From NCBI GenBank assembly GCA_021776215.1, contig JAJFGI010000086.1, forward strand, positions 1 through 37,010: a DNA stretch of 37,010 bases, written 5' to 3'. Source of the stretch: Kiloniellaceae bacterium (GTDB taxonomy: Bacteria > Pseudomonadota > Alphaproteobacteria > Kiloniellales > J153). This document shows positions 32,459-37,010 of this stretch, one piece after another. A program made the translations under genes and the position numbers. Below the pieces are notes generated by a model, which worked only from the letters and a program-made list of their open reading frames with translations, did not search any database and was not told the origin of the DNA. Every line of letters starts with the position of its first letter. The stretch's first letter is position 1.

Positions 32459-32890
32459 CTACAGCGTGGCGGGCCCAAGGGCGCCCGGCACGCGGTCCAG
32501 CATGGCGTCCAAACGGGCCACCCGCTGATACAGCCGCAAACTGCTGTCGAGAAGCTGGGCCAAGCGTTCCGGCAAGGGCTCGTCGAGGACCGGCTGAACC
32601 GCCTCGCAGATCGAATGCCCCGCCAGACGGTATTCCGGAGTCACCGCCTGCTCCCGCGTCAGCTCGCCGGCATGCACCGCCTTCTGAACCAGAAGCCACG
32701 CCACGACTTGTGTGACCCGGGCGGTCATCCGCATGGATTCACAACTCGCCACCAGCCGGCCTGCGGCGCTCAGCTCGTCGAAATCGGCCCGTTTCTGGTG
32801 CGCCAAATAGTCCCGTGCCTCACGGGTCAGCGCCATCGCCTCGTCGAAGGTGCTGTCGAAATAGGCGATCTGTTGGGCTAAATCGGTCAC
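32459..32890 (-). CDS. rcdA: RcdA-like protease adaptor (DUF1465 family)
   Basis: FDEAMALTREARDYL...ESMRMTARVTQVVAWLLVQKAVHAGELTREQA resembles Caulobacter RcdA/DUF1465. Confidence 0.8.
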   Translation of the reverse strand: MTDLAQQIAYFDSTFDEAMALTREARDYLAHQKRADFDELSAAGRLVASCESMRMTARVTQVVAWLLVQKAVHAGELTREQAVTPEYRLAGHSICEAVQPVLDEPLPERLAQLLDSSLRLYQRVARLDAMLDRVPGALGPATL

Positions 32891-34980: not shown

Positions 34981-36276
34981 TCAGGCTTTTTGCGCGGCGC
35001 GTAGCGCCTGACGCAGATCGTCGATGATGTCGCCGGCGTCCTCGATACCCACGGAGATGCGGATCATATCCTCGCCGACGCCGGCGGCGGCGAGTTGCGC
35101 CGCATTCATCTGCTGATGCGTGGTGCTGGCCGGGTGCAGGACCAGGGTCTTGGCATCGCCCACGTTCGCCAAGTGCGAGGCCAGCTTGCAGGCCTCGATG
35201 AACCGGGTGCCGGCGGCACGCCCGCCGGTGAGGCCGAAGCTGATGATCGACCCCGCCCCCTTGGGCAACAGGCGCTGCGCCAGTGCATGGTCCGGGTGGG
35301 CGGGCAAGCTCGGGTGCACGACCCAGGCCACCGCCTCGTCGCTCTCGAGGAATTCCAGGACCCGCGCGGTGTTGGCCACGTGGCGCTCGATACGCAGCGG
35401 CAGGGTCTCGATTCCCTGCAGGATGTAGAAGGCATTTTGCGGGCTCATGGCGGGGCCGAAGTCGCGCAGCCCTTCCGCCCGAGCGCGCATGGAAAACGCC
35501 TGCGGCCCGAACTCCTCGGCGAAGTCGATGCCGTGATATCCGGCGTAGGGTTCGGTCAAGGTCGGAAACTTGCCGCTTGCCTCCCAATCGAAACGGCCGC
35601 CGTCCACGACGATCCCGCCGAGCGCCAGGCCGTGCCCACCCAGCCATTTGGTGGCCGAGTGCATGACGATATCCGCCCCCAATGCCACTGGGTTGCACAG
35701 ATAGGGGGTCGCGAAGGTGTTATCGATCATCAGCGGCAGGCCGGCGCCGTGGGCGATGTCGGCGACCGCCGGGACGTCGAGCACTTCGAGGCCCGGGTTG
35801 CCGAGGGTCTCGGCGAAGATCAGCCGCGTCTCCGGCCGGATGGCGGCGCGCAAGGCCGCATGATCGCGCGGGTTGACGAAGCTGGTCTCGATGCCGAAGC
35901 GCGGCAGGGTGTGGGCGAACATGTTGACGCTGCCGCCATAGAGGGACGACGAGGCGACGATATGCCCGCCCTGCCCCATCAAGGTGACGATCGCCAGATG
36001 CAGAGCGGCCTGGCCGGAGGATGTGGCCACGGCGCCGACACCATGCTCCAGGGCCGCCACCCGCTCCTCCAGCACCGCGACCGTGGGGTTGGAGATGCGG
36101 CTGTAGATGTGCCCGGCGCGCTCCAGATTGAACAGCGCCGCCGCGTGGTCCGTGTCGCGGAACACATACGACGTGGTCTGGTAGATCGGCACCGCCCGGG
36201 CGCCGGTCACCGGATCCGGCTGCTGCCCGGCGTGCAGCGCCAAGGTGTCGAATTTCAGGAACTTGGGAGTCGCCAT
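34981..36276 (-). CDS. metY: O-acetylhomoserine aminocarboxypropyltransferase/sulfhydrylase
   Basis: FDTLALHAGQQPDPVTGARAVPIYQTTSYVF, RISNPTVAVLEERVAALE, VMHSATKWLGGHGLALGGIVVDGG. Confidence 0.95.
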   Translation of the reverse strand: MATPKFLKFDTLALHAGQQPDPVTGARAVPIYQTTSYVFRDTDHAAALFNLERAGHIYSRISNPTVAVLEERVAALEHGVGAVATSSGQAALHLAIVTLMGQGGHIVASSSLYGGSVNMFAHTLPRFGIETSFVNPRDHAALRAAIRPETRLIFAETLGNPGLEVLDVPAVADIAHGAGLPLMIDNTFATPYLCNPVALGADIVMHSATKWLGGHGLALGGIVVDGGRFDWEASGKFPTLTEPYAGYHGIDFAEEFGPQAFSMRARAEGLRDFGPAMSPQNAFYILQGIETLPLRIERHVANTARVLEFLESDEAVAWVVHPSLPAHPDHALAQRLLPKGAGSIISFGLTGGRAAGTRFIEACKLASHLANVGDAKTLVLHPASTTHQQMNAAQLAAAGVGEDMIRISVGIEDAGDIIDDLRQALRAAQKA

Positions 36277-36413: not shown

Positions 36414-36458
36414 AAAAAAAATGGGGGGCCTTGGGTCCGTCATATCGGACCGTGGCCC
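36414..36458 (-). terminator. Intrinsic terminator (minus strand): GGGCC-AC-GGTCCG-ATATGA-CGGACC-CAA-GGCCC then CCCATTTTTTTT
   Basis: Inverted repeat GGTCCG (36434-36439)/CGGACC (36446-36451), extended by GGGCC/GGCCC, followed on the minus strand by eight T (plus A8 at 36414-36421). Confidence 0.75.
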
Positions 36459-36464
36459 ACCCAA

Positions 36465-36494
36465 TTGTTATGCCTCAACCTGTTAACTTGCCGG
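36465..36494 (+). repeat. Inverted repeat arm 1: ttgttatgcctcaacctgttaacttgccgg
   Basis: Matches the minus strand of 36612-36642 (ttgtaatgcctccctgttaacttgccgccgg); includes 15 identical bases cctgttaacttgccg and 7 identical atgcctc. Confidence 0.9.
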
Positions 36495-36589
36495 ATTTTG
36501 ACATTACGGCGCCCCACTCCCACGGTCAAGGGCGCATTGGTTAACGAACACGAGTGCAAACCCTTGACCCCGAAACGATTAGGGCCCGG

Positions 36590-36619
36590 AAAAGAAAAGC
36601 CGCCGGACAAGCCGGCGGC
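36590..36619 (-). terminator. Intrinsic terminator (minus strand): GCCGCCGG-CTTGT-CCGGCGGC-TTTTCTTTT
   Basis: 8-bp GC-rich perfect stem (36599-36606 / 36612-36619) followed on the minus strand by TTTTCTTTT. Confidence 0.85.
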
Positions 36620-36642
36620 AAGTTAACAGGGAGGCATTACAA
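36612..36642 (-). repeat. Inverted repeat arm 2: ttgtaatgcctccctgttaacttgccgccgg (minus strand)
   Basis: Partner of 36465-36494. Confidence 0.9.
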
Positions 36643-36810
36643 GGAACGGATTCTCATCCGCTCGACGAGCCGGAGCTCCCAGGGAGGGATTCCGATTCGC
36701 CTGACAACAATGTAGGCACAGCCCGCTAAAAAATGGTTAATGAAATGCGAAAGTTCGTGGTGTTTTTGCTACAAAGCTGTGACATTTAAGCAACAATTGG
36801 GCCCCAGTCC

Positions 36811-37010
36811 TCACTGCGCCAGCCAGCCACCATCGATATTCAACGCCGCGCCGGTGATCTGCGCAGCCCCGTCGCTGCACAGGAAGCACGCGAGTTGGCT
36901 AATCTGCTCCGGCGTGACGAATTCCTTGGACGGCTGCTTCTCCTGGACCAGTTCGACCTTGGCCTCGTCATAGGACATGCCGGTTTCCTTGGCCCGGTCC
37001 TCGATTTGCT
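36811..37010 (-). CDS. bdhA: 3-hydroxybutyrate dehydrogenase-like SDR, C-terminal fragment (truncated by window edge)
   Basis: Manual minus-strand translation: QIEDRAKETGMSYDEAKVELVQEKQPSKEFVTPEQISQLACFLCSDGAAQITGAALNIDGGWLAQ*. Missing from the ORF track because it is truncated. Confidence 0.85.
   Translation of the reverse strand, partial: QIEDRAKETGMSYDEAKVELVQEKQPSKEFVTPEQISQLACFLCSDGAAQITGAALNIDGGWLAQ

Follow-up and report, generated by a model that had tools for sequence, protein, structure and literature searches.

Two adjacent candidate small RNAs in the metY-bdhA spacer of a Kiloniellaceae bacterium: a putative anti-Shine-Dalgarno sRNA and its predicted sponge

The metY-bdhA spacer of a Kiloniellaceae bacterium appears to hold two small regulatory RNAs, RNA1 and RNA2, rather than one. 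It lies within a stretch of 37,010 nucleotides that was analyzed as a whole and is referred to here as the window. The two are probably adjacent, separately transcribed sRNAs, of which RNA1 would act as an anti-Shine-Dalgarno (anti-SD) repressor and RNA2 as its dedicated sponge. With moderate confidence, the pair may further be viewed as a tandem sRNA/anti-sRNA module that coevolves over several alphaproteobacterial families and whose decoy also serves a second sRNA family. The proposal is built from features read in the DNA: the two loci, their promoter and terminator signals, their conservation, complementarity and coevolution, and the independence of RNA2 from metY. An earlier note on this DNA had described a single candidate sRNA; the second RNA, downstream of the first, was missed and is the larger finding of the locus. 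Table 1 presents the coordinates of the features.

Table 1. Features of the RNA1-RNA2 locus and of related loci (window positions unless a locus or contig is named).
Feature	Position	Strand	Remarks
bdhA 3' end	36811..37008	(-)	upstream gene, cut by window end; 3-hydroxybutyrate dehydrogenase; NF009093, 1.7e-19, last 65 residues
TTAACCATTTTTTAG box, TTAA-N7-TTAG	36726..36740	(-)	CtrA-site-like; upstream of RNA1; promoter role inferred
RNA1 (candidate sRNA)	36590..36702	(-)	stem-loop 1, stem-loop 2, anti-SD linker, terminator; 5' end estimated, -10 uncertain
RNA1 stem-loop 1	36701-36664	(-)	predicted fold
RNA1 stem-loop 2	36663-36644	(-)	predicted fold
RNA1 linker/seed UCCUUGUAAUGCCUCCCUGUUAACUU region	36620..36643	(-)	near-invariant in alignment; unpaired in MFE and centroid folds
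RNA1 intrinsic terminator	36590..36619	(-)	8 G-C pairs, 5-nt loop, TTTTCTTTT
GTTAACCAATGC half-site-like element	36534..36545	(-)	upstream of RNA2 promoter; recurrent in many, not all families; seen in upstream alignment
RNA2 promoter	36501..36530	(-)	CTTGACC (36530-36524), 17-nt spacer, TAATGT (36506-36501)
RNA2 (predicted sponge RNA)	36414..36496	(-)	5' anti-seed, terminator hairpin, T8; 5' end estimated
RNA2 anti-seed CCGGCAAGTTAACAGGTTGAGGCAT / CCGGCAAGUUAACAGGUUGAGGCAU	36470..36494	(-)	complementary to RNA1 linker and to SorX-like sRNA seed
RNA2 terminator-like hairpin and U8	36414..36463	(-)	covariation
metY	34981..36276	(-)	next gene downstream, same strand; O-acetylhomoserine aminocarboxypropyltransferase; NF006004, 777.6 bits
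DUF1465/RcdA genes	window 32459-32890; L041 1072-1470; L050 1112-1558; L043 1779-2348	window (-)	window ORF by resemblance only
SorX-like sRNA CCCAGACGUGAAGCCUCCCUGUUNAACUUGCC	G000 contig C111 16662-16768 (L091 ~2163-2269)		37.5 bits vs Rfam cut-off 46.6

The elements on which the earlier note had based its candidate are all present. GGGAGG occurs on the plus strand at 36629-36634 and 36682-36687, the CGGAT-GAGA-ATCCG hairpin lies between the two copies (36647-36660), and a strong intrinsic terminator with an 8-bp GC stem ends in TTTTCTTTT (36619-36590). The flanking genes it had named, bdhA and metY, are confirmed by the NF009093 and NF006004 matches. Since GGGAGG is rarer in the window than expected by chance (9 occurrences against ~33), the motif count by itself says little and the case for RNA1 has to be made from structure and conservation. 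Compared with its dinucleotide shuffles, the stretch folds better (z = -4.4, 0/200), with the MFE and centroid structures in agreement. Between stem-loop 2 and the terminator, a single-stranded linker of ~24 nt contains the 3' CCUCCC and runs into the 5' arm of the terminator, GCCGCC. Two CCUCCC motifs had originally been proposed as the mark of this RNA; the 3' copy (36629-36634) is conserved, while the 5' copy (36682-36687) is not. The latter lies apically in stem-loop 1, where relatives read CCCGCCC, CTCCC or something unrelated. Stem-loop 1 is highly variable in sequence across relatives, and RNAalifold on a MAFFT alignment of RNA1 did not recover stem-loops 1 and 2. A six-codon ORF inside RNA1 (AUG AGA AUC CGU UCC UUG UAA) was set aside, its start codon not being kept in relatives.

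Conservation of RNA1 is extensive. Of 101 relatives, 52 gave a BLASTn match to it. A covariance model derived from 30 orthologues (model R1), to which the RNA1 of the window scores 113.3 bits, matches in 58 of the 64 genomes of the order (Kiloniellales-type Alphaproteobacteria), a few of the weaker matches (e.g. G019) being a SorX-like paralogue and not RNA1. The class-wide count of 61/290 genomes mixes BjrC1505-type and SorX-type matches. Comparison of the spacer among relatives, over 30 aligned sequences, places the near-invariance in the linker with the 3' CCUCCC: the single-stranded UUCCUUGUAAUGCCUCCCUGUUAACUU is almost unchanged, and little or no variation is seen at most columns of the stretch from stem-loop 2 to the terminator (GTTCCTTGT.A.GCCTCCCTGT...CTTGCCGCC). 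Upstream, a TTAACCATTTNTTAG box is found in most genera; in the form TTAA-N7-TTA[AG] it precedes RNA1 in 16 of 22 genera, where 0.4 would be expected, and is usually 100-109 nt ahead of the RNA1 core. Together, conservation, fold and upstream box strongly support the earlier view of a putative independent sRNA gene with an exposed C-rich anti-SD segment and a terminator; RNA1 would thus be an sRNA gene conserved across the order, its transcription being predicted from these signals. The chance that RNA1 is just the structured 3' UTR of bdhA, freed by read-through or processing, is slim. Such an origin would suit the position of bdhA, whose end lies ~180 nt upstream in the same orientation, both in the window and in some relatives, but many loci keep RNA1 where bdhA was not detected directly upstream, and the box and its spacing are conserved. 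It is the retention of box and RNA1 together at loci of this kind that makes a bdhA 3' UTR origin unlikely.

Turning to the family of RNA1, the earlier placement in the AbcR/alpha-r class did not hold, as the nine matches that Rfam gave up to E = 10 included no AbcR or alpha-r15 model and no family reached its cut-off at the window. Nor does RNA1 belong to the CUCCUCCC motif class that had been suggested; its motif is CCUCCCUGUU instead. The best-scoring models were BjrC1505 (RF02356; 26.3 bits against a gathering cut-off of 50, E 0.012 for 1 kb), SorX (RF02784; 23.3 bits, cut-off 46.6), SorY (22.2 bits, cut-off 111) and suhB/MmgR/alpha-r8 (RF00519; 21.9 bits, cut-off 41). With BjrC1505, RNA1 aligns over its full length (positions 1-140) and has in common GCCUCCCUGUU together with the hairpin that precedes and the terminator that follows this segment; RNA1 differs in its lower score, and the Rfam entry describes no partner RNA. 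The BjrC1505 model alone retrieves the same loci as BLASTn in >12 relatives, and in one genome (G064) a BjrC1505 member above the cut-off occupies the same place before metY and is accompanied by an RNA2. RNA1 is thereby connected to BjrC1505 through intermediates and by genomic place. A strong BjrC1505 member (G072, 91 bits) carries the box TTAACTATTTGTTAG. SorX has CCUCCCUGUU, ACUUG and the terminator as in RNA1, whereas RNA1 possesses an extra 5' stem-loop and remains below the SorX cut-off. MmgR/alpha-r8 resembles RNA1 in its single-stranded CCUCCCU segment ahead of the terminator. According to PMC12559287, a core of 10 nt, UUUCCUCCCU, that follows a weak hairpin marks this family, whereas RNA1 has AUGCCUCCCU after a strong hairpin, and the genome holds a separate true alpha-r8 member on contig C13 (55.2 bits). 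Judged by these alignments, RNA1 is related to BjrC1505 and SorX but divergent, falls below the Rfam cut-offs, and is not an AbcR/alpha-r15 RNA.

The signals around RNA2 support a separate RNA with its own conserved promoter and terminator, the transcription of which would follow from them. TTGAC-N17-19-TANNNT stands ahead of RNA2 in all 22 of 22 genera (0.03 expected). The hairpin covaries (0.290 against 0.135 in shuffles, 0/500; slid controls at most 0.116), while the 5' 33 nt are unpaired in the centroid fold. A strict sigma70 scan found no promoter, and the accompanying terminator scan did not report the RNA2 hairpin. No Rfam match fell on RNA2 up to E = 10, and a known riboswitch was discarded as its identity. 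The anti-seed is present in nearly all loci orthologous to the RNA1 locus; the RNA2 model matches 55 of the 64 genomes of the order and 19/290 class-wide. In a name-bearing GTDB scan, RNA2 was met in Kiloniellales, Rhodovibrionaceae, Pelagibius, Tistlia, Denitrobaculum and similar.

RNA2 could be imagined as the leader of metY, with RNA1 pairing to an anti-seed in the metY 5' UTR and so controlling premature termination or translation of metY. In favor of this, most loci of the order, and also G064, have metY directly downstream in the same orientation; attenuation would be well served by a terminator-like hairpin ahead of the gene, and the U-tract of RNA2 is weak in some cases (e.g. L007, L008). 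We regard this arrangement as unlikely, however, since RNA2 is also kept at loci with another gene in the place of metY: a convergent hsp20 follows it in L041, L012 and L050, fasciclin-like genes in L049 and an unrelated ORF in L110. In the window, moreover, ~140 nt separate the U8 run of RNA2 from the metY start.

As a separate RNA, RNA2 most often travels with RNA1. When GTDB was scanned for the RNA2 promoter plus anti-seed, RNA1 was found 116-344 nt upstream in 32 of 35 matches; the other three comprise a truncated contig, a diverged RNA1 (Ferruginivarius) and an RNA2 alone. Five genomes were found with RNA2 and no adjacent RNA1 (G010, G014, G019, G021, G033), and four of them have a SorX-like CTCCCTGTTCAACTTGCC elsewhere; in G033 no partner sRNA was found. 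At L110 (~2400-2510, the same locus as L156, G021), RNA2 stands without RNA1 or metY alongside; it is flanked by two ORFs, of which one is small and DUF1192-like and the other lipoprotein-like.

The complementarity of the two RNAs is extensive and centers on the seed of RNA1. In the window, the RNA1 linker and the RNA2 anti-seed, both unpaired in centroid folds, form 26 bp, consisting of a main helix of 15 + 7 bp with a 2-nt bulge and four further pairs, at -44.9 kcal/mol (z = -6.7 against dinucleotide shuffles). RNA2 thereby shows the extensive complementarity to an sRNA seed that is expected of a sponge. Across 35 lineages, the cognate duplexes sum to -1293 kcal/mol compared with -1151 +/- 18 when partners are permuted (z = -8.1, 0/50,000), and the 14 most divergent lineages alone give z = -5.6, kinship being ignored in both figures. 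Matched changes are seen in CCCUGUGCAACUUGCC/GGCAAGUUGCACAGGG (G025), CCUGUUAAACUUUC/GGAAGGUUUAACAGG (G175), CCUGUCUAACUUG/CAAGUUAGACAGG (f43) and GACUCG/CGAGUC (G342). By this comparison of cognate and permuted partners, the RNA1 seed and the RNA2 anti-seed coevolve. Complementary segments of 22-30 nt that lie on one strand, in most cases 116-344 nt from each other, could also constitute an inverted repeat at the DNA level, such as a protein-binding or recombination site, a reading that we hold to be extremely improbable. Many lineages need G-U wobbles or bulges (e.g. GUUGAC vs GUUGAC in f5), which fits RNA pairing and disfavors a palindrome in DNA; each segment lies between promoter and terminator signals, and RNA2 occurs also away from its partners.

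A second partner for RNA2 is suggested by the SorX-like sRNA CCCAGACGUGAAGCCUCCCUGUUNAACUUGCC, which is present in 19/19 genomes checked (G000 on contig C111 and the G001-G063 counterparts L195-L212). In all 19, its seed pairs with the RNA2 of the same genome, the energies of -32 to -44 kcal/mol being close to those for RNA1. The MmgR/alpha-r8 seed of the window's genome pairs poorly with RNA2 (-16.9 kcal/mol). These energies suggest that RNA2 may be a shared sponge of BjrC1505- and SorX-type sRNAs, a role that would explain why the RNA2 core is near-invariant while the center of RNA1 varies. As to messenger targets, phasins were considered for RNA1 by analogy with MmgR and rejected: in most of 20 family loci, some with uncertain start codons, the seed paired with phasin mRNAs no better than with shuffles, one locus being ~1.8 sd better.

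In the model that we infer for transcription, Hfq use, the direction of titration, the physiological signal and mRNA targets, RNA1 would expose its CCUCCCUGUU anti-SD seed between stem-loop 2 and the terminator and occlude ribosome-binding sites, most likely keeping several mRNAs from being translated, probably with the help of Hfq. RNA2, made from its own sigma70-type promoter directly downstream of RNA1 and comprising a 5' single-stranded anti-seed and a terminator, would base-pair with the linker so that RNA1 is sequestered or destabilized. It could likewise take up the SorX-like paralogue on contig C111 and not MmgR/alpha-r8. As the pairing of RNA1 and RNA2 is symmetrical, the direction of titration is not fixed by sequence, and the roles could be exchanged, with RNA2 as the active mRNA-pairing regulator and RNA1 and the SorX-like sRNAs as its decoys. 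This exchange seems very unlikely: the seed of RNA1 is of the anti-SD type found in SisA-D and MmgR-class repressors (PMC12559287), whereas the 5' end of RNA2 looks like a Shine-Dalgarno or target mimic and RNA2 contains nothing else but a terminator.

With RNA2 placed as the sponge, the closest described case is CrfA of Caulobacter crescentus, which sponges the anti-SD sRNAs SisA-D (alpha-r8). According to PMC12559287, this non-coding RNA inactivates several sibling sRNAs by pairing of a G/A-rich segment with their CCUCCCU anti-SD seed, as is predicted for RNA2. RNA2 is distinguished by its architecture, its partner families and its adjacency to a partner. CrfA pairs through its G/A-rich second stem-loop (PMC12559287), whereas RNA2 has only an unpaired 5' anti-seed and a terminator; its predicted partners are of the BjrC1505 and SorX types, the alpha-r8 seed pairing poorly with it in the window's genome; and it is encoded next to one of these partners. 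QrrX of Vibrio cholerae, a sponge of Qrr1-4, is likewise encoded by a gene devoted to this role, has a conserved promoter of its own and pairs with the conserved seed of sibling sRNAs (PMC9732341). It belongs to other bacteria and has other sequences and seeds than RNA2, and qrrX lies between vca0830 (qrrT) and vca0832, beside the regulator gene qrrT (PMC9732341). A literature search, with most subscription journals outside its reach, returned no title or abstract describing RNA2; so far as the literature was searched, we could not find this RNA family described.

Both CrfA and QrrX were discovered by interactome sequencing in single species (PMC12559287, PMC9732341). The present pair could be read from sequence thanks to the coevolution of seed and anti-seed in many genera, and this coevolution suggests an on/off pair of ancient origin. 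RNA2 might also explain why the BjrC1505-type linker is near-invariant. For work on the pairing of sponge and sRNA and its evolution, cultured relatives are available in Pelagibius litoralis, Tistlia consotensis, Rhodovibrio sodomensis and Denitrobaculum tricleocarpae. A search for complementary segments in neighboring intergenic RNAs may offer a route to other sRNA/decoy pairs.

The box upstream of RNA1 may bear on its regulation. The CtrA site is TTAA-N7-TTAA, which the box resembles, making it a candidate site. In many families, a GTTAACNATTC-like element precedes the RNA2 -35 box by ~4-10 nt and resembles the first half of the RNA1 box; this likeness points to possible co-regulation of RNA1 and RNA2. 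A DUF1465/RcdA gene is near the RNA pair in several families (PF07323 in L041, L043, L050); that of L041 has in addition a sub-threshold match to NCBIfam RcdA. In CtrA turnover, RcdA serves as a protease adaptor. Taken together, the TTAA-N7-TTAG box and the recurrent neighbor rcdA raise the possibility that the module is tied to the CtrA cell-cycle circuit. Lastly, RNA1 and RNA2 are both present in a record titled 'Polyangiaceae' (L104), possibly a misassigned or contaminated MAG contig.
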